From: Salegentibacter mishustinae
GTDB taxonomy: Bacteria; Bacteroidota; Bacteroidia; Flavobacteriales; Flavobacteriaceae
DNA: 64,000 nucleotides
Assembly: GCF_002900095.1 (NCBI RefSeq)
Contig: NZ_LLKN01000002.1
Location: 2,108,001 to 2,172,000, forward strand
Reading direction: 5' to 3'
The notes under the pieces were generated by a model. The model was not told the origin of the DNA. It saw nothing but the letters and a program-made list of their open reading frames with translations, and ran no database searches. The translations under genes were made by a program, and so were the position numbers. Positions 2,907 to 28,709 of this stretch are shown here, in pieces. How positions within the stretch are numbered: position 1 is the first letter of the stretch; every line of letters starts with the position of its first letter.

Positions 2907-3845
2907 ATGCAGAAAAGCTTTAAAGACCATCTTTCAGTAACCTTAAAAGGTATGGCGATGGGCGCGGCAGATGTGGTTCCTGGAGTTTCAGGAGGCACGA
3001 TCGCTTTTATTTCAGGAATTTACGAAGAACTGATCTCTACCATTAGCGGGGTTAATTTTTCACTAATCACTACCTGGAAAGAGCAAGGCTTTAAAGCCAT
3101 GTGGCAGCAGCTTAACGGGCCTTTTATTTTAGCACTTTTTACCGGCATCCTCATCAGCGTGTTCTCACTGATGCGAATCGCAAATTATTTATTGGAAAAT
3201 CATCCAATATTAATATGGTCCTTTTTCTTTGGCCTTGTGCTTGCCAGCATCTGGTTTGTAGGTAAACAAATTCCCAGGTGGAATGTAAAGATCTTTCTCG
3301 CCCTTTTAATAGGAGCTGCCGTAGCTTTCTACATCGTTTCCCTACCTCCAATGGCAGCAAATGACAGCTATTTATACATCTTTTTTTCTGGAGCTATTGC
3401 TATTTGCGCTATGATCTTACCCGGAATCTCGGGTGCGTTTATCTTAGTACTACTTGGAGCTTATAAAAGAATTACAGAAGCCGCTCACGATTTCGATTTT
3501 CAAACATTGGGAGTATTTGGCATTGGAGCCATAATTGGCTTACTTAGCTTTTCTAAAATTTTAAAATGGCTGTTTGTACATTACAGCAATCTAACCCTGG
3601 CTGTCTTAACCGGTTTTATAGCAGGATCGCTAAACAAGATCTGGCCCTGGAAACACGTATTGCAAACAGAAATGTACGGAGATAAGGAAGTTGTGCTAAA
3701 AGAAGCCTCGGTTTTACCCTGGAATTTTAATGGTGAACCACAAACGGTATATGCTATCGTTTTAATGCTGGCAGGATTTTTCTTAATTCTAGGCCTGGAA
3801 ATTTTCGCCTCAAAAAGCTCACAAAACGCCAATGCAACAAACTAG
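2907..3845 (+). CDS. DUF368 membrane protein (PopT-type polyprenyl-phosphate translocase family), copy 1
   Basis: A polytopic inner-membrane protein of 312 residues with eight or nine hydrophobic segments. The family hallmark GAADVVPGVSGGT is near residues 18-35, and a second related hairpin, LPGISGA, lies around 171, giving the two-fold internal repeat of the family. DUF368 proteins have recently been linked to recycling of undecaprenyl phosphate across the membrane for wall and surface polysaccharide synthesis; applying this here is by family only. It overlaps the next gene, a paralogue, by 14 bases, and aroE follows. Confidence 0.85.
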   Translation: MQKSFKDHLSVTLKGMAMGAADVVPGVSGGTIAFISGIYEELISTISGVNFSLITTWKEQGFKAMWQQLNGPFILALFTGILISVFSLMRIANYLLENHPILIWSFFFGLVLASIWFVGKQIPRWNVKIFLALLIGAAVAFYIVSLPPMAANDSYLYIFFSGAIAICAMILPGISGAFILVLLGAYKRITEAAHDFDFQTLGVFGIGAIIGLLSFSKILKWLFVHYSNLTLAVLTGFIAGSLNKIWPWKHVLQTEMYGDKEVVLKEASVLPWNFNGEPQTVYAIVLMLAGFFLILGLEIFASKSSQNANATN

Positions 3846-4857
3846 AACCTTTACAGATAAAGTGCTTTTAGTGCTTAAAGGTTTGGCTATGGGAGCAGCT
3901 AATAAAGTTCCCGGTGTGTCTGGTGGTGTAGTAGCTTTTGTTGCAGGTTTTTACGAGGAATTTATCTATTCTCTCCAAAAAATTAATTACAAGGCTTTTA
4001 TATTGCTAATAAACGGGCGATTTAGAAGCTTGTATCATTATACCAATGGAAAGTTTCTGAGTTTGCTTATCCTGGGGATGCTTATTAGTTATTTTAGTGT
4101 TTCAAAATTACTCGATTATTTAATACTTCATTACGAACTCTACGTGTGGGCCTCTTTCTTCGGAATGATTATAGGCTCTATATATTATATCAGTAAAGAT
4201 TTTGACGAATGGAGTAAACGCTCCCTGGTTTTCGTTTTCCTCGGAATAATTGCCGGGGTGGCCATTAGCTTCCTGGAGCCGGCAAAGGAAAACGATAATC
4301 TTTGGTTCGTATTTTTTTGCGGAATGGTAGGCGTTTCCGGAATGACCTTACCCGGACTCTCAGGTTCCTTCATACTTATCTTATTTGGAAATTATGTATT
4401 GCTTCTCGTAGATTCAGTAAATGCACTTTACGATACTCTTGCCGATTTGGTAGTGCTAGATTTTAATTTTATAAATAATCCCGATAGAATTAGATTATTA
4501 GAGGTGATATTGGTGTTTGGCGCTGGTTCCCTGGCCGGTTTGGTTACGCTTTCCCATTTTCTGGGTTATGTTTTAAAACACTATAAAAAAGATACTTTCG
4601 CCGCGATTATTGGTTTTATTACCGGCTCTCTTGGAGTGGTTTGGCCCTGGAAAGAAAAGATCTTTAAACTAAACCAGAACGGAAAAATAATTCTGGACAG
4701 CCAGGGCAATGGTGTAATAGATTATTACGACCGTTATTTCCCAACTTTTTCTTCTGCGGAAACCTGGCTGGCAATTTTCTTTATCTTTGTAGGTATACTC
4801 ATTGTATTAGGACTCGCCTGGTACGAAAAGAAAAACCAAAAACCCGCAACGCGATGA
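3832..4857 (+). CDS. DUF368 membrane protein (PopT-type family), copy 2
   Basis: A paralogue of the preceding gene, 341 residues, with the same layout. The first hallmark reads GAANKVPGVSGGV, so the acidic residue of copy 1 (AADVVPG) is replaced by Asn-Lys. The second motif is LPGLSGS. It has a longer loop near residues 200-220 and a longer loop before the last membrane segment, where both copies share the string WPWK. ATG 3832 lies inside the end of copy 1, and the stop overlaps the aroE start as ATGA, so translation is probably coupled. Likely role: inner-membrane lipid-carrier translocation. The two copies have diverged and may have different substrates or partners. Confidence 0.85.
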   Translation: MQQTRTFTDKVLLVLKGLAMGAANKVPGVSGGVVAFVAGFYEEFIYSLQKINYKAFILLINGRFRSLYHYTNGKFLSLLILGMLISYFSVSKLLDYLILHYELYVWASFFGMIIGSIYYISKDFDEWSKRSLVFVFLGIIAGVAISFLEPAKENDNLWFVFFCGMVGVSGMTLPGLSGSFILILFGNYVLLLVDSVNALYDTLADLVVLDFNFINNPDRIRLLEVILVFGAGSLAGLVTLSHFLGYVLKHYKKDTFAAIIGFITGSLGVVWPWKEKIFKLNQNGKIILDSQGNGVIDYYDRYFPTFSSAETWLAIFFIFVGILIVLGLAWYEKKNQKPATR

Positions 4858-5582
4858 AAACTTTTGGCTTAATTGGAAAAAACATCAGCTACTCATTTTC
4901 CCGAACTTATTTTACCGAAAAATTTAAGAAAGAGAATATTGACGCTAAATACTATAATTTCGACCTGGAAGAAATCAATCAATTTCGGGATGTAATTAAA
5001 GAAATGCCAGATCTTGGCGGCCTAAACGTTACCATTCCTTACAAGCAGATGATCATTACATTTTTAGACGATTTAGCTCCTGAGGCCAGAGAAATTGGCG
5101 CGGTAAATACTATTAAGATAAAAGGCAATCGGCTTATTGGTTACAATACAGATTATATCGGGTTTTCAGAATCTATAAAACCCCTGCTTAAATCTCACCA
5201 TAACAAAGCACTTATTCTGGGGACCGGCGGAGCTTCGAAAGCTATAGCCTACGCCTTAAAAAAACTGGATATTGAATATAAATTTGTCTCAAGATCTTCA
5301 GGAAAAGGCAAATTAGGGTACGATGATCTTTCCGAAGAAGTTATAAAAGATCACAATATTATCATCAATACTACACCTGTAGGGACCTTTCCAGACGTAG
5401 AAGAATATCCGGAATTCCCAGTCGAATATCTTACCAAAAATCATCTGGTTTACGACCTTATCTACAATCCGGAAATCACCCAATTATTAGCATTGGCAAA
5501 AAAACAGGGAGCCACGGTTAAAAATGGTTTAAAAATGCTGGAATTACAGGCCGAAAGCGCCTGGAACATTTGGAATAAATAG
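4854..5582 (+). CDS. aroE: Shikimate dehydrogenase
   Basis: NADP-dependent reduction of 3-dehydroshikimate to shikimate, the fourth step of the chorismate pathway. The catalytic lysine is in NVTIPYKQM (about K64), the paired aspartate in GYNTDYIGF (about D100), and the nucleotide-binding turn in GTGGASKA (123-130). At 242 residues it is shorter than the roughly 270-residue E. coli enzyme, as is usual in Bacteroidota. The start overlaps the DUF368 stop by four bases, placing it at the end of that operon. The link to lipid-carrier genes looks positional rather than functional. Confidence 0.95.
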   Translation: MKTFGLIGKNISYSFSRTYFTEKFKKENIDAKYYNFDLEEINQFRDVIKEMPDLGGLNVTIPYKQMIITFLDDLAPEAREIGAVNTIKIKGNRLIGYNTDYIGFSESIKPLLKSHHNKALILGTGGASKAIAYALKKLDIEYKFVSRSSGKGKLGYDDLSEEVIKDHNIIINTTPVGTFPDVEEYPEFPVEYLTKNHLVYDLIYNPEITQLLALAKKQGATVKNGLKMLELQAESAWNIWNK

Positions 5583-5686: not shown

Positions 5687-7939
5687 ATGTCTCAGCAAGA
5701 AAATGATAAAAGCAAAGAAGAGTTTTCTAACGAAGCTACTAATAATTCTGAAAAAGCTAAGAATGAAAAGAAGCTTACCGAAGAAAACCAGGATGAAAAT
5801 GTAGAAGAAAAATCATTTTCTGAAAAGTCTGAAGCCGAAGAAACCTCAACAGAGAAAGAAACGGTTATAGAACCTGCCGAAACTGCTTCTGAAATTAAAA
5901 CTGATGATGATAAACTGGAAGATGCTATGATCGCTGAGGCCGGTGACAAGAAGAACACTTCAGAAGAAAATAAAGCAAGCAGCGAGGAAGACGATGAGAA
6001 CGACGCTATTCTTGAAGAAAGCAGAAAAAAAACCCGTCCGGAAGAAGAAAAGGTTCAGGCAGAAACAGGAGCTAAAGCTGAAGATACATCTCATGAAGAT
6101 GATGAGGACGAAGATGAAACTTCTGAAGAAGAAGGACGCACATCAAAACACCACCAGGAGCATATAGACGATTCAGTTGCTGAAGACAGTGAAGATGAGT
6201 CAAAAGCTGAGCGCCACGATATTCCGAAGAAAGATTATCACGCTATGAGTAAAGAGCAACTCGTAGATGAGTTTGAATCTTTGCTAAAAAAGGAAAAAGT
6301 ACAGGCTATTAAAGAGCACGTGATTGAAATTCGTGCTGAATTTAATGCCAAGTTTAATGAAGAGGAAGAGGAGAAAAAAGAGGAATTCCTTGCCGATGGC
6401 GGGAATATTATAGACTTCCACTACTCCACTCCGATTAAAAAACGTTTTAATTCCCTTTATTTCGATTATCGGGAAAAACGCAATAATTATTACAAGCAAC
6501 TTAAACAAGACCTTAATAAAAACCTGGATAAACGCTTGGAAATAATTGCAGAATTAAAAGGTCTTATTGATGTTGAAGAAAATATAAACACCACTTACAA
6601 GCACTTTAAGGAACTTCAGGATCGCTGGCGCGTTGCAGGGCCTATTCCGCGAGAAAAATACAACGATGTTTGGAATACCTATCACCATCATGTAGAGAAC
6701 TTCTATGATTTTCTGCATTTAAATCGTGAGTTCCGGGATTTGGATTTTAAACATAATCTTGATCAAAAATTAAAAGTAATTGACCGTGCTGAAGAATTGG
6801 CACAGGAAGCCGATGTAAACCGTGCATTTAGGGAATTACAAATGCTTCACAAAATGTGGAAAGAAGAGCTTGGGCCGGTTGCCAAAGAGTTTCGTGAAGA
6901 TATTTGGGATCGTTTTAGCAGCGCCACCAAACAAATTCACGATAAACGCCAGGAGTATTTCAATACGTTAGATGAACGCTACGAAGAGAACTGGAAAGCC
7001 AAGCAAGTTATTATTGAGAAGATAAGAGTAATTGCCGACGAAGATTATAAAAGCCACAATAAATGGCAACAGAAGATTAAAGAGATAGAAGCGCTTCGGG
7101 AAGCATTCTTTAATGCGGGGAAAGTTCCGCGTAGTAAAAATGAAGAAACCTGGACAGATTTCAAACAAACCGTTCGCCGATTTAACCGAAATAAAAACGC
7201 ATTCTATAAAAATCTAAAAAAACAACAATACGATAACCTCGAAAAGAAAAAAGAGCTTATTCAAATTGCCGAAGACAATAAAGATAGTGACGATTTTAAA
7301 ACGGTCACACCTTTAATGAAAAAGATCCAGGCAGACTGGAAGAAGGTTGGCCACGTACCTAGAAAAGATAGCGACAAGGTTTGGAAACAATTTAAAGCGG
7401 CCTGTAACCATTATTTTGAACGCCTCCACGAAACACGTAAAGACGAGAATAAAGAAGAATTCGAAGCTTTTGATAAGAAGAAGGAATTATTGGAGCAGGT
7501 AAAATCTTTTGAACTTAGCGGTGATAAAAAAGAAGATCTACCTAAAATAAAACAATTTATTGAAGACTGGAAAAATTTAGGCCGTGTACCTTATAACAAG
7601 CGTTTTATTGAAGGGAAATTCAATAAAGCTTTAGATCAGCTTTTCAATAAACTGGACGTAGATCATACCAAAGCTGAAATGCTTAAATATGAGAACAAAG
7701 TACAGGCTATAAACGATGCAGATGATGATAAAAAGCTTCGCAACGAGCATTATTTCTTAACCAAAAAAATAGAAGAAACCAGAGCTGAAATTAGACAGTT
7801 GGAAAATAATCTGCAATTCTTCTCAAATGTAGACGAAGACAATCCTTTGGTACAGGACGTACACAAAAATATAGCTGACCACAAAGAGCAGCTTGAAGTC
7901 TGGAAAGAAAAATTACGTAAAATCAAGTCGCTTTATTAA
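5687..7939 (+). CDS. DUF349 repeat protein with a long acidic N-terminal tail
   Basis: About 750 residues. The first 190 are a disordered-looking tail of Glu, Asp, Lys and Ser with acidic runs. The rest is helical and carries five DUF349 units, each with a Trp, a Gly and a VPR-type turn: DRWRVAGPIPREK, the degenerate WKEELGPVAKE, FFNAGKVPRSK, WKKVGHVPRKD and WKNLGRVPYNK. It ends in a coiled coil. No enzymatic motif is seen and DUF349 has no firm role. A TTG at 5678 is also in frame, but ATG 5687 is preferred. It is transcribed alone from its own promoter-like element, with a methyltransferase gene 11 bases downstream. Confidence 0.85.
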   Translation: MSQQENDKSKEEFSNEATNNSEKAKNEKKLTEENQDENVEEKSFSEKSEAEETSTEKETVIEPAETASEIKTDDDKLEDAMIAEAGDKKNTSEENKASSEEDDENDAILEESRKKTRPEEEKVQAETGAKAEDTSHEDDEDEDETSEEEGRTSKHHQEHIDDSVAEDSEDESKAERHDIPKKDYHAMSKEQLVDEFESLLKKEKVQAIKEHVIEIRAEFNAKFNEEEEEKKEEFLADGGNIIDFHYSTPIKKRFNSLYFDYREKRNNYYKQLKQDLNKNLDKRLEIIAELKGLIDVEENINTTYKHFKELQDRWRVAGPIPREKYNDVWNTYHHHVENFYDFLHLNREFRDLDFKHNLDQKLKVIDRAEELAQEADVNRAFRELQMLHKMWKEELGPVAKEFREDIWDRFSSATKQIHDKRQEYFNTLDERYEENWKAKQVIIEKIRVIADEDYKSHNKWQQKIKEIEALREAFFNAGKVPRSKNEETWTDFKQTVRRFNRNKNAFYKNLKKQQYDNLEKKKELIQIAEDNKDSDDFKTVTPLMKKIQADWKKVGHVPRKDSDKVWKQFKAACNHYFERLHETRKDENKEEFEAFDKKKELLEQVKSFELSGDKKEDLPKIKQFIEDWKNLGRVPYNKRFIEGKFNKALDQLFNKLDVDHTKAEMLKYENKVQAINDADDDKKLRNEHYFLTKKIEETRAEIRQLENNLQFFSNVDEDNPLVQDVHKNIADHKEQLEVWKEKLRKIKSLY

Positions 7940-24729: not shown

Positions 24730-24855
24730 ATGGAAAAACAGAAAACTCAAAAATTCTCCAAAACCAGTATTTTTTTAATAGGTGTAGCGCTTATCGTTGT
24801 GTATTTAATACTTTCAGATTGGGAGCATTTTAAACAAGGACTTTTAGGAATTTAA
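24730..24855 (+). CDS. 41-residue single-span membrane protein
   Basis: ATG 24730 to TAA 24853-24855. A basic N-terminal third (EKQKTQKFSKTS), one transmembrane helix (IFLIGVALIVVYLIL), then a short soluble tail SDWEHFKQGLLGI. The tail pattern D-W/F...G recurs loosely in the small proteins at 24863 and 26509. The layout, basic N-terminus with one helix and a compact tail, argues for a real micro-protein rather than chance. No function is recognised. Confidence 0.6.
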   Translation: MEKQKTQKFSKTSIFLIGVALIVVYLILSDWEHFKQGLLGI

Positions 24856-24862
24856 TACATCT

Positions 24863-24982
24863 ATGAAACGCAACTATACTTTCCTGGAAATCATAGGGAT
24901 CATCGGTTTAATAATTATGGCAGTTTACCTACTCGATTTCACTATAGAAGCCGCGTTAGACGGTTGGAATAACCCAATATAA
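24863..24982 (+). CDS. 39-residue single-span membrane protein
   Basis: ATG 24863 to TAA 24980-24982, seven bases after the preceding micro-gene. Short basic start (MKRNYTF), one helix (IIGIIGLIIMAVYLL), tail DFTIEAALDGWNNPI. It resembles the 34-residue product at 26509, which has VGIIFTAFMLVIFLDFALKA: both keep a helix, then L-D-F, then A-x-x-x-G. Together they look like a small family of related membrane peptides. No function is recognised. Confidence 0.6.
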   Translation: MKRNYTFLEIIGIIGLIIMAVYLLDFTIEAALDGWNNPI

Positions 24983-25007
24983 ATGCACTTTAAAAGTATC
25001 TTAAACC

Positions 25008-25400
25008 GTGATTATCTATTACCAAAAGAAAAAGCTTAATTATCAACTTTATTCCGGGATAGGATTTTTAATTATTGGAATTGCAATAGTGCTTCTAAAT
25101 AATTTCTCGCTTATTTATTATACCTGGGTTTTACTTGGGCTACTGCAGCTGGGCACCTGGTATTTTAAAAAGAAACATCAATACTTATATATTACGGAAG
25201 GCAGACTAACCAAAAATTCTCTTTTCCCTAAAAGCATAAAACTTAATGAACTTACCGCAATTTGGAAGTTTAAAAGCAGTTTTACACTTGAAACCAGGCA
25301 AGCTAAAATTAAGATCGACAAAGATTTAATGGAAGATGAGTCATTATTCAAACTCACCGATTTCTTAAACCAAATTGAACTGAAACCCCAAGAAACATAA
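25008..25400 (+). CDS. Small membrane protein of unknown function (intact paralogue of the 28160 pseudogene)
   Basis: 130 residues from a GTG start (V/M-IIYYQKKK). Two hydrophobic helices (about 15-32 and 35-52) are followed by a soluble beta-rich domain of about 75 residues with LTKNSLFPKSIKL and FKLTDFLNQIEL. A second version at 28160-28558 has the same GTG start and matching blocks, which supports both the start and reality of this gene. The arrangement recalls PH-like domains that follow a membrane hairpin; that is a guess. The CPBP protease gene starts 19 bases later. Confidence 0.75.
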   Translation: MIIYYQKKKLNYQLYSGIGFLIIGIAIVLLNNFSLIYYTWVLLGLLQLGTWYFKKKHQYLYITEGRLTKNSLFPKSIKLNELTAIWKFKSSFTLETRQAKIKIDKDLMEDESLFKLTDFLNQIELKPQET

Positions 25401-25419
25401 GCATTCCCAAATATTAAAA

Positions 25420-26271
25420 ATGGAAAGAGACGATAAAAAAATGGGGTGGATAAGAGTACTACTTCTTATTTTCCCTTATGTTATTATTGTAGGTATATTT
25501 CAAATAATAGGATATATAATTGGAGGTATATCTTTTGAGGAAGAATTACAACTAACCACCACCCAGTCATTTATTATAACCATAGCAACATTACTGGGAA
25601 CACTTACAGTCCTCTATCTCTTTATGAGATTTGTTGAAAAAAGAAAATTTAAAGAGCTGGGCTTAAAGATTAAAGATCGCGGGTTCGATCTTCTTGCAGG
25701 CGTTATAATAGGACTTATAGTAATGGCTACAGGCTTCTTTCTGCTCATAGTATTAAATGAAATTAATGTTCAAAATTTCAACCTCGATCTAGAGGAAGTT
25801 TTATTATCTATTGGAGTTTTTATGGCTGTAAGTATTAGCGAAGAACTATTGTGTAGAGGCTATATTCAAAGGAATTTAATGTATAGTTTTAATAATTATA
25901 TCGCTTTAATTGTTTCATCTTTATTATTCGCGCTGGCTCATAGTTTTAATCCTAATCTCAGCTGGATAGCGCTTGCAGGCCTATTTGGCGCCGGAATATT
26001 ATTGGGCCTTTCCTATATTTATACCAAAAACCTATGGTTTCCTATTTCCCTGCACTTTAGCTGGAATTTATTTCAAGCTTATTTTGGTTTTAATGTAAGT
26101 GGCCAGGAATTCTATTCTATCGTTGAATTTAATATTGCTGAAGAAAATATTTTAAACGGAGGAAAATTCGGGTTTGAAGCTTCTATTTTTTCTCTTATCC
26201 TACAAATAGCCTTGATTCTGCTTATTTTTAGGTACTATCAGAAAAGAAAAAATTTAACCGAAAATAGTTAG
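25420..26271 (+). CDS. CPBP family intramembrane glutamic endopeptidase
   Basis: 283 residues with about eight transmembrane helices. The CPBP (Abi/CAAX protease-like) motifs are complete: EELLCRG (E141, E142, R146), LAHSFNP (H174) and LHFSWN (H212, N216). Members cleave within the membrane; in other bacteria relatives mature peptides, confer bacteriocin self-immunity or control sigma factors. Flanked by several membrane proteins of 34-59 residues, which would be natural substrates or partners, but no direct proof is visible here. Probably in an operon with the gene at 25008. Confidence 0.88.
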   Translation: MERDDKKMGWIRVLLLIFPYVIIVGIFQIIGYIIGGISFEEELQLTTTQSFIITIATLLGTLTVLYLFMRFVEKRKFKELGLKIKDRGFDLLAGVIIGLIVMATGFFLLIVLNEINVQNFNLDLEEVLLSIGVFMAVSISEELLCRGYIQRNLMYSFNNYIALIVSSLLFALAHSFNPNLSWIALAGLFGAGILLGLSYIYTKNLWFPISLHFSWNLFQAYFGFNVSGQEFYSIVEFNIAEENILNGGKFGFEASIFSLILQIALILLIFRYYQKRKNLTENS

Positions 26272-26508
26272 CTTCTTTACCAAAGAAAGAATTTTGAAAA
26301 ACTTGTAATCTTTTAACCAAAACACATATAAAACACCTGTATTTAAGATTAAATTTGGATAAAACATATAGAATTCCTTATATTTACCGTTAGTTTTGTT
26401 AAAATTTGTTGAGAAAAACTGAATTTTTCAGGAATTAATGTTTCCAAAATCAAACTGATTTTACTTCGAAACATTTCTCAAAATCTTTGTGTAACTAAAA
26501 ATATAAAT
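26272..26508. other. AT-rich non-coding gap before the small-protein trio
   Basis: 237 bases without a plausible gene. TAGTTTTG at 26391-26398 fits the -7 consensus and may drive the genes from 26509 on. No repeat or strong hairpin is seen. Confidence 0.35.
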
Positions 26509-26613
26509 ATGAAAGATCGCATCAATACTTTAAAACTAGTAGGAATAATTTTTACCGCATTTATGCTGGTTATTTTCTTAGACTTTGCTTTAAAAGCTAT
26601 TGTAGCAGGTTAA
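26509..26613 (+). CDS. 34-residue single-span membrane protein
   Basis: ATG 26509 to TAA 26611-26613. MKDRINTLK, one helix (LVGIIFTAFMLVIFL), then DFALKAIVAG. Related in pattern to the 39-residue product at 24863 (helix, LDF, A-x-x-x-G). It lies 25 bases before a GTG-started 59-residue gene, so the trio is likely one transcript. No function recognised. Confidence 0.6.
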   Translation: MKDRINTLKLVGIIFTAFMLVIFLDFALKAIVAG

Positions 26614-26637
26614 TCTCACCCCATATTTTTTCAAACT

Positions 26638-26817
26638 GTGAATAAAGCAAGATTATTTGGCCTTTTTCTTATAACCGCCGGACTCATCTGGAGCTCTAAT
26701 TTTCAAGCTTTTAATTTAAATTTCTTTGCGGGTATGTTAGTCGGTGCAGGAGTGCCTTTTCTGCTCACCGGCAAATTTCGCTTTTGGAAGTGGAAATTTC
26801 CAGAGGCCAAACAATAA
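26638..26817 (+). CDS. 59-residue membrane protein, GTG start
   Basis: GTG 26638 to TAA 26815-26817. Two short hydrophobic stretches (LFGLFLITAGLIW and FFAGMLVGAGVPFLL) and a basic-aromatic tail (KFRFWKWKFPEAKQ). The hairpin plus positive tail would place both ends in the cytoplasm. The start codon is non-standard and no ribosome site is obvious, so the gene is likely but not sure. Confidence 0.5.
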   Translation: MNKARLFGLFLITAGLIWSSNFQAFNLNFFAGMLVGAGVPFLLTGKFRFWKWKFPEAKQ

Positions 26818-26845
26818 TTCGTTCAGTGCAATCCCGGTTTCAAAT

Positions 26846-27007
26846 ATGAATAAAACCACAAAAGCTGGCCTTTTAGTTCTATTGATCGGGATATTAATTT
26901 ATCTCGTGTTTAGTGATGGTATCGCCGGTATTACTCGTGCAATTATCATTGGATTTTTAATCGGGATTGGTTTTGTCTTAGGTGGTCAATTAGGAAAAAA
27001 CACCTGA
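26846..27007 (+). CDS. 53-residue two-span membrane protein
   Basis: ATG 26846 to TGA 27005-27007. The frame is open further upstream, to 26744, but that part overlaps the preceding gene and is not membrane-like, so the ATG is preferred. MNKTTKAGL, a helix (LVLLIGILIYLVF), SDG, then a second helix (IIIGFLIGIGFVLGG). The first helix and SD turn resemble the 24730 product (VVYLILSDW). No function recognised. Confidence 0.6.
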   Translation: MNKTTKAGLLVLLIGILIYLVFSDGIAGITRAIIIGFLIGIGFVLGGQLGKNT

Positions 27008-28159: not shown

Positions 28160-28558
28160 GTGATCATTTACTTCAAAAAGAAACGACTAAACTTCCGGCT
28201 ATTTAATGGTATAGCTTCTTTAGTAATGGGCCTTATATCATTATTATCCGATTTTCAATTTTTCTTTGTGTATGCCTGGCTTATTCTTGGGCTTCTGGAA
28301 ATTGGCACCTGGTATTATCAAAATAAATTTTAGTATTTACAAATAGAAAATAACGTTCTTACTAAAAATTCGCTTTTTCCAAAAAGTATTGAGCTATCCA
28401 AAATTACAGCGATACGAAAATACAGGAACAGTTTTCTTATAGAATCTAAAGAGAAAAACATTAAGATTTACAAAGATGTCATATCTACCGATTCCCTCTA
28501 TCAGCTCACCGATCTTCTTAACGAAATTCAAGTAAAAAGCTCCGAAGTAAGCACATAA
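28160..28558 (+). pseudogene. Amber-interrupted paralogue of the 25008 membrane protein
   Basis: From GTG 28160 the frame reads 57 codons, meets TAG at 28331-28333, and continues 74 sense codons to TAA 28556-28558. The translation on both sides aligns to the intact 25008 protein: IIYFKKKRLNF vs IIYYQKKKLNY, LGLLEIGTWYYQNK vs LGLLQLGTWYFKKK, and after the stop LTKNSLFPKSIEL vs LTKNSLFPKSIKL. The TAG sits where the intact copy has CAA-TAC; one change from CAG would explain it. No frameshift is needed. Either a recent pseudogene, a truncated 57-residue membrane hairpin, or readthrough. Confidence 0.8.
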
Positions 28559-28709
28559 GAACTATTATTGGAAAATAAATTTTGATTTTAAAGCAATCCC
28601 CGGAACATTTAATCCCGATTACCGGGTAAAACCTCAACAGCTATAGTCCTTTTTGTTACCAGGATAATTCATAAATCTGTATTTTTAGACCTTTCTAATA
28701 TCACAGAAA

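Follow-up and report, generated by a model that had tools for sequence, protein, structure and literature searches.

Leaderless micropeptides and a CPBP protease in Salegentibacter: a possible orphan immunity-type module

What do several very small membrane proteins do around a gene for an intramembrane protease? The question is raised by a locus of the marine bacterium Salegentibacter mishustinae (Flavobacteriaceae), at positions 24730–27007 of a 64,000-nucleotide stretch of contig NZ_LLKN01000002.1 (hereafter, the window). Here, five frames of 41, 39, 34, 59 and 53 amino acids (s41, s39, s34, s59 and s53, respectively) surround an intact CPBP protease gene, all on the + strand, exactly as described in an earlier sequence-only reading of this DNA. 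The favoured explanation, to which we assign a probability of about 0.42, is that a peptide-conflict system is represented here by an orphan immunity-type module, in which leaderless look-alikes of bacteriocin cores are combined with a CPBP protease. This explanation is based on the reality of the genes, their operon spacing, the similarity of two of the tails to peptides with a double-glycine (GG) leader, the recurrent CPBP neighbourhood and the lack of a C39 peptidase match in the genome; from these features we infer a protective (immunity) role of the module.

The small genes of the locus

The locus consists of two units, s41-s39-p130-CPBP followed by s34-s59-s53. In the first unit, s41 (24730..24855, +) and s39 (24863..24982, +) encode leaderless single-helix micropeptides of 41 and 39 amino acids, recognized from their open reading frames (ORFs), hydropathy and relatives, with the tails SDWEHFKQGLLGI and LDFTIEAALDGWNNPI, respectively. 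They are followed by p130 (25008..25400, +), a gene for a 130-amino-acid protein that was missing from the sequence-only inventory, and by the gene for the 283-amino-acid CPBP (Rce1-like) protease (25420..26271, +). The gaps between these successive genes (7, 25 and 19 bp) are typical of a tight operon. The protease matches PF02517 with an E-value of 2.4e-21 (76.3 bits, against a cut-off of 22.4), and its motifs EELLCR, FALAH and HFSWN conform to the EExxxR, FxxxH and HxxxN pattern, i.e. the catalytic motifs are intact.

The five small frames are genuine conserved genes under purifying selection. Selection of this kind, to which the sequence-only reading had looked for support, is apparent in the relatives, where the ratio of nonsynonymous to synonymous variation (pN/pS) lies between 0.15 and 0.33 (0.25 for s34 in 11 genomes, 0.15 for s39 in 5, 0.33 for s41 in three, 0.31 for s59 in 6 and 0.30 for s53, the latter from one genome pair only); the pairwise counts overlap in history. 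Variable columns concentrate at third codon positions, most strongly in s39 (7/5/28, P 2e-6) and most weakly in s34 (P 0.08). Under a fixed rule (ATG or GTG start, 30–75 amino acids, hydropathy >1.9), three one-helix frames are found in the two intergenic stretches, compared with 0.16 expected (0/1000 simulations).

Each of the five proteins starts with a basic stretch and a helix. The maximum hydropathy of 2.5–2.6 supports the helix in s41, s39, s34 and s53, whereas the value for s59 is lower (1.69). The pattern (L)D(F/W)...G that had been noticed in three of the peptides is real but mixed: s39 and s34 are detectably homologous (tblastn E 7e-4 in S. salarius; E 1.2e-10 for s34 in the search with the s39 profile), whereas s41 shows no cross-match with either of them in the s41 and s39 profile searches.

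Double-glycine relatives and CPBP neighbourhoods

None of the five peptides carries a double-glycine leader, and the CPBP-neighbourhood rule for calling GG peptides picks out none up to 3 kb away from the window CPBP. In Pfam, no family scores above its cut-off for the five peptides or p130 (all rows with E 0.02 or worse), and in NCBIfam neither p130 nor, with E up to 1, any of the five peptides has a match, the class IIb bacteriocin family TIGR03949 included. The C39 peptidase domain, PF03412, has 0 matches in the window genome (E up to 0.001), and therefore the window does not encode a GG system of the ordinary, exported kind.

The two first-unit peptides have relatives outside the genus. 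Among 397 Flavobacteriaceae genomes, 26 contain a match to a profile of four Salegentibacter s41 sequences and 21 a match to the s39 profile (E up to 0.01 in both cases); many of the weaker matches seem spurious and were left out. The tails SDWEHFKxGLxG of s41 and ..DGWNNP of s39 recur in a few GG-leader, class IIb-bacteriocin-like peptides. The s41 profile finds such peptides in one genome each at E 2.5e-6 (G398), 6.6e-6 (G017) and 2.4e-5 (G045), the last with a core of the YDWEHFKDGLLGR type. The G017 peptide lies next to a complete C39 exporter (529 bits with TIGR01193, for which the cut-off is 524) and the G045 peptide next to an exporter fragment, and leaderless one-helix peptides with similar tails are encoded in the same stretches. 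Two of the six related GG peptides tested match TIGR03949. A GG peptide, a C39 exporter and a leaderless one-helix peptide occur together in L136 (Psychroflexus curvus), L143 and L153, with a PF02517 match also present in L136 and L153 (in the latter, without a long ATG frame), and L144 combines CPBP with GG peptides on a short contig. The order of s41 followed by s39 is repeated in G420 (L126) and G266 (L134) and, with a GWN-type partner, in G045 (L129). Taken together with the C39 loci and the GG pairs before CPBP genes described below, these GG-leader relatives support the bacteriocin-type context that the sequence-only reading had brought in. In an order-wide search of 395 genomes with a wider DW profile (up to 19 candidates scored per genome, rows weaker than E 1e-3 set aside), the matches below E 1e-3 are confined to Flavobacteriaceae.

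Some relatives of s41 are found in housekeeping-like surroundings. They lie near genes that by eye resemble groEL, cutC or clpX, with no CPBP or exporter nearby, in L139 and L145 (both from genus g115) and in L188 (Gillisia hiemivivida), and perhaps have a distinct function. In L154 (G336; 4669-5351), tandem peptides with YDWE/YDWD tails precede an s59-like two-helix protein; the pair lies downstream of a DUF4369-thioredoxin-like gene resembling that of the window.

The C39 domain is present in 66 of 239 family genomes (E up to 1e-15); 40 of the 96 listed places and other loci were examined, and 46 C39 loci entered the profile scan. Among the 4736 small ORFs of these 46 loci, the best match of the s39 profile is a GG peptide (L252, 8620-8796, E 0.0018) that ends in FLEGWNEPK and has a core of the EWFLEGWNEPK type. 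The six C39 loci examined from the genus itself encode few GG peptides, none with the s41 or s39 tail. In 13–14 loci, leaderless one-helix peptides that have GG peptides in their vicinity were matched, with the helix masked, to the GG cores. The best within-locus scores sum to 602, compared with 481 ± 29 after reassignment, and 2 of 5000 permutations score as high; the set comprises 25 peptides, one of which, entered as leaderless (L186 4765), is really a GG peptide. The clearest pairs come from L186 (GG LNDADNNPDDFLDGYNAV with leaderless INDAINHPSDFNDGFKFI), L217 (GG FVSGLVMPFCNN with leaderless HFSNGLVSPFSDN), L143 (GG DWDGFKAGISGGI with leaderless NWNDFISGISGGI) and L132. Against shuffled tails in the survey set, the window s41 reaches p 0.02, its match being the GG peptide that precedes the CPBP of G132, and s39 reaches p 0.003; the 16 query peptides of this test were picked by hand and the p values are uncorrected for multiple testing.

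The association with CPBP extends beyond the genus for peptides of the s41/s39 type, as the sequence-only reading would lead one to expect. In 28 genomes with motif-confirmed peptides, in each of which the PF02517 genes were located, a CPBP gene lies within 2 kb of such a peptide in 8 genomes from 5 of 12 genera, against 0.13 expected (P 4e-8). The enrichment persists without Salegentibacter (4/11 genera, P 8e-7) and when the two genera kept by eye are left out as well (3/9, P 4e-5). Before counting, 12 of the 21 s39-profile genomes and 11 of the 26 s41-profile genomes were dropped as weak or lacking the tail motif by eye, G151 (E 0.0066) and G336 (E 0.0083) were kept because the frame showed the motif, and peptide positions were entered by hand and rounded.

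The subfamily of the window CPBP is itself found in 26 of 397 Flavobacteriaceae genomes (E up to 1e-30). Among these 26 neighbourhoods, matching leaderless peptides occur in the window genome (G000) and G417 and, weakly and by eye, in G356 and G172. In G132, G334 and G396, which represent three genera other than Salegentibacter, the window-type CPBP directly follows two GG-leader peptides, accompanied in G334 by a C39 exporter and HlyD. The three GG pairs (L204 in G396, L206 in G334 and L210 in G132) look homologous across the genera, and, judging by sequence, the pair with its CPBP could form a two-peptide bacteriocin operon in this family. Simple sequence rules or inspection by eye served to recognize GG peptides; of the four that precede CPBP in L206 and L210, the rule of the C39 survey caught one and the later CPBP-neighbourhood rule three, and it was the latter rule that brought in G396 as the third genus.

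The p130 protein has two membrane helices and a beta domain. Its AlphaFold model, built from 13 sequences (pLDDT 81.6, pTM 0.60), shows two long helices, a helix at the C-terminus and seven strands, of which the N-terminal one is short. In Foldseek, the first 23 rows are PH, PTB and FERM proteins, the best with E 4.8e-3 and none at or below 0.001, and VIA-align gives a middling Z of up to 6.2 over 76 residues; the beta domain is predicted to have a PH-like fold. A p130 paralogue in the window (28160-28576), 49% identical to the S. salarius p130, is interrupted by an in-frame TAG stop after 57 codons, and intact relatives of it occupy the same place in several other members of the genus. Elsewhere, p130-like genes share a stretch with a C39 exporter (L168, G002:C44, 10386-10898) and with a window-type CPBP gene (L197, G336, 7082-7522).

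The second unit and distribution in Salegentibacter

Between CPBP and s34 lies a 237-bp spacer (26272..26508, +), a promoter-like region upstream of s34-s59-s53. Its block AAATTTGG...TTATATTTA, aligned across 8 Salegentibacter genomes, resembles a Bacteroidota promoter. The spacer is followed by s34 (26509..26613, +), a single-helix micropeptide of 34 amino acids that is homologous to s39 but has no GWNNP tail, s59 (26638..26817, +), a probable two-helix small membrane protein of 59 amino acids with a GTG start, and s53 (26846..27007, +), a small membrane protein of 53 amino acids. The gaps are 24 bp between s34 and s59 and 28 bp between s59 and s53.

This unit is the more widely kept of the two, and it need not share the role of the first. 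Eleven of the 15 Salegentibacter genomes carry the s34 gene. It shares the region with the window CPBP in four of the 11 (G000, G013, G007, G006), whereas in the other seven (G002, G004, G005, G009, G010, G012, G014) the locus has no such CPBP, and six of these seven lack a window-type CPBP genome-wide. In the seventh, G002, a more distant CPBP gene pair lies on another contig, ~3-6 kb from s39- and s41-like frames. Among the same seven genomes, s59 is present in five, in pieces in one and not found in one; in the 19 fetched loci, it has matches in eight, of which that in L069 is fragmented and that in L065 remote (31%), and by eye a 54-amino-acid protein similar to s59 lies beside the DW-type peptides of L154. 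The only full-length match of s53 is in L055 (S. salarius, 79%). The linkage to CPBP proposed for all five peptides as one group is therefore refuted for s34, and the notion that all five serve the protease is rejected because s34 and s59 occur without CPBP.

The first unit shows a different distribution. At the locus, s41 is present in three of the four CPBP-bearing genomes versus none of the seven without CPBP (Fisher 0.024), and its relatives are those of L055, L064 and G002:C52. At this locus, s39 is found in five genomes (the window, L055, L057, L058 and L059), and the wider count of 8 of 15 genus genomes includes distant relatives elsewhere in G001 and G002 as well as the s34 gene of G007. 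Three of the seven s34 genomes that lack the locus CPBP retain s39. In G010, G004 and G009, the s39 gene begins within a match to the DNA upstream of s41 and, in G010 and G004, also to its opening codons, a pattern suggestive of a deletion that removed s41.

Two observations concern the surroundings of these genes. In L064 (G007, 3479-4067), the thioredoxin-like neighbour gene is interrupted by stops. In L066 (G001:C17, 5900-7200), a stretch translated as SCGQSxSPARTVFIRDV is repeated between short genes in what by eye resembles a gene-cassette array, on a contig that also carries a transposase-like gene and an s39-type peptide.

A proposed immunity-type module and its alternatives

Under the favoured explanation, s41 and s39 would be leaderless, membrane-held look-alikes of the class IIb-bacteriocin-like GG peptides of related Flavobacteriaceae, whose genes lie partly beside C39 export ABC transporters. 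Their charges suggest an N-in/C-out orientation in the inner membrane. The peptide-like tail would then face the periplasm, where s41 and s39 might form pairs with arriving secreted peptides of their own type, or block them. The CPBP protease, which occupies the slot of the Abi immunity proteins in bacteriocin operons, would disable the incoming peptides, and p130 may assist at the membrane. The s34-s59-s53 unit would be a more widely kept companion, s34 having the helix and not the bacteriocin-like tail. For CPBP proteins of bacteriocin loci, the reported roles are those of immunity protein, processor or receptor (PMC9298176).

Several results weigh against this explanation. CPBP genes are present in only 3 of the 40 surveyed C39 loci (L217, L220 twice and L234, by the CPBP model), and 19 of the 26 window-type CPBP neighbourhoods contain neither leaderless peptides nor a GG pair by the rules used. 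An s41 profile built solely from leaderless sequences matches no GG peptide of the 46 C39 loci, and s41-type loci with no CPBP or exporter seen are known from L129, L135, L137, L139 and L145. The tail matching is less convincing when the peptides are scored one by one (Fisher 0.061 for the full set of 25 and 0.42 when only survey loci are used), with the best partner in the own locus for a modest 4 of 23 (P 0.007), for 2 of 19 without the peptides with the s41 motif (P 0.14) and for 1 of 8 from survey-only loci. No GG-like tail is present in s34, the peptide with the widest conservation (shuffled-tail p 0.8). In published systems, ddAB alone gave a sensitive strain no protection (PMC7332713), and SilX, a bacteriocin-locus CPBP, conferred no immunity (PMC9298176).

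One alternative, in which the peptides are unrelated envelope micro-proteins, and the CPBP linkage and tail likeness come from gene-poor variable islands and simple amphipathic tails, is rather unlikely. It would account for s34, which is kept stably in the genus and has a promoter-like block to itself, and for the several s41-type genes in other surroundings, such as those beside groEL, but it is at odds with the CPBP enrichment (P 4e-8), with the E-values at which the s41 and s39 profiles meet GG peptides and with the GG pairs that precede window-type CPBPs in three genera. The proposal of the sequence-only reading that the peptides are substrates or signals of the protease did not gain support. 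In this version, they would be substrates or regulated partners, for example membrane signals freed by intramembrane cleavage, as would suit the tight operon, the co-occurrence of s41 with CPBP, the intact catalytic motifs and SilX, which may process a signal peptide (PMC9298176). We consider this unlikely, given that s34 and s39 persist without the window CPBP and that the conserved tail is explained at least equally by the likeness to GG cores.

The closest alternative is a leaderless two-peptide bacteriocin operon of the EntDD14 or L50 type, in which s41 and s39 are exported, p130 is a PH-domain transport helper and CPBP provides immunity. Such an operon would explain p130 better than an immunity module does: EntDD14 export requires two PH-domain proteins, DdE (141 amino acids) and DdF (PMC8657885). 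The window resembles these loci in the two adjacent leaderless peptides, 7 bp apart, and in the small membrane protein with a predicted PH-like fold, and the order of s41 and s39 recurs in G420, G266 and, with the GWN-type partner, G045. The window differs from them in having a CPBP gene and in the clear anchor helix and conserved DWEHFK/GWNNP tail of its peptides; the helix with its basic N-terminus resembles a retained anchor, no ABC transporter gene was recognized by eye among the ORFs flanking the operon and s39 survives without s41 or CPBP in three genomes. Exported bacteriocins are an improbable reading. EntDD14 also speaks for the favoured immunity-type module: inside the cell, this leaderless bacteriocin contributes to immunity against itself (PMC7332713, PMC8657885).

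In the class IIb loci with Abi/CPBP immunity, as in the window, CPBP stands in the immunity slot and small membrane peptides lie beside it, and the relatives add to the likeness, with related CPBPs after GG pairs in three genera and TIGR03949-type GG peptides in other related loci. In contrast to those loci, a GG leader is missing from the window and a C39 match from its genome, and the peptides are one-helix forms without a leader. The GG relatives of s41 and s39 are similar to the bacteroidetocins, Bacteroidota peptides with a GG leader whose ABC transporter has a double-glycine peptidase; PMC6671954 describes bacteroidetocins as having four cysteines and no obvious immunity gene, whereas the window peptides have no cysteine and no leader. 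No literature on the window peptides was found by title and abstract start, a weak indication of novelty with most subscription journals and bioRxiv outside the scope.

A broader proposition, that Flavobacteriaceae practise immunity by mimicry, with leaderless anchored twins of the toxin tail and a CPBP protease spreading as orphan modules without the toxin exporter, is doubtful at present. The loci of the bacteroidetocins are reported without an obvious immunity gene (PMC6671954). If leaderless membrane peptides of 34–45 residues serve as immunity proteins in other Bacteroidota loci, they could have been missed by gene callers that discard short frames. The loci found here supply concrete peptide pairs.

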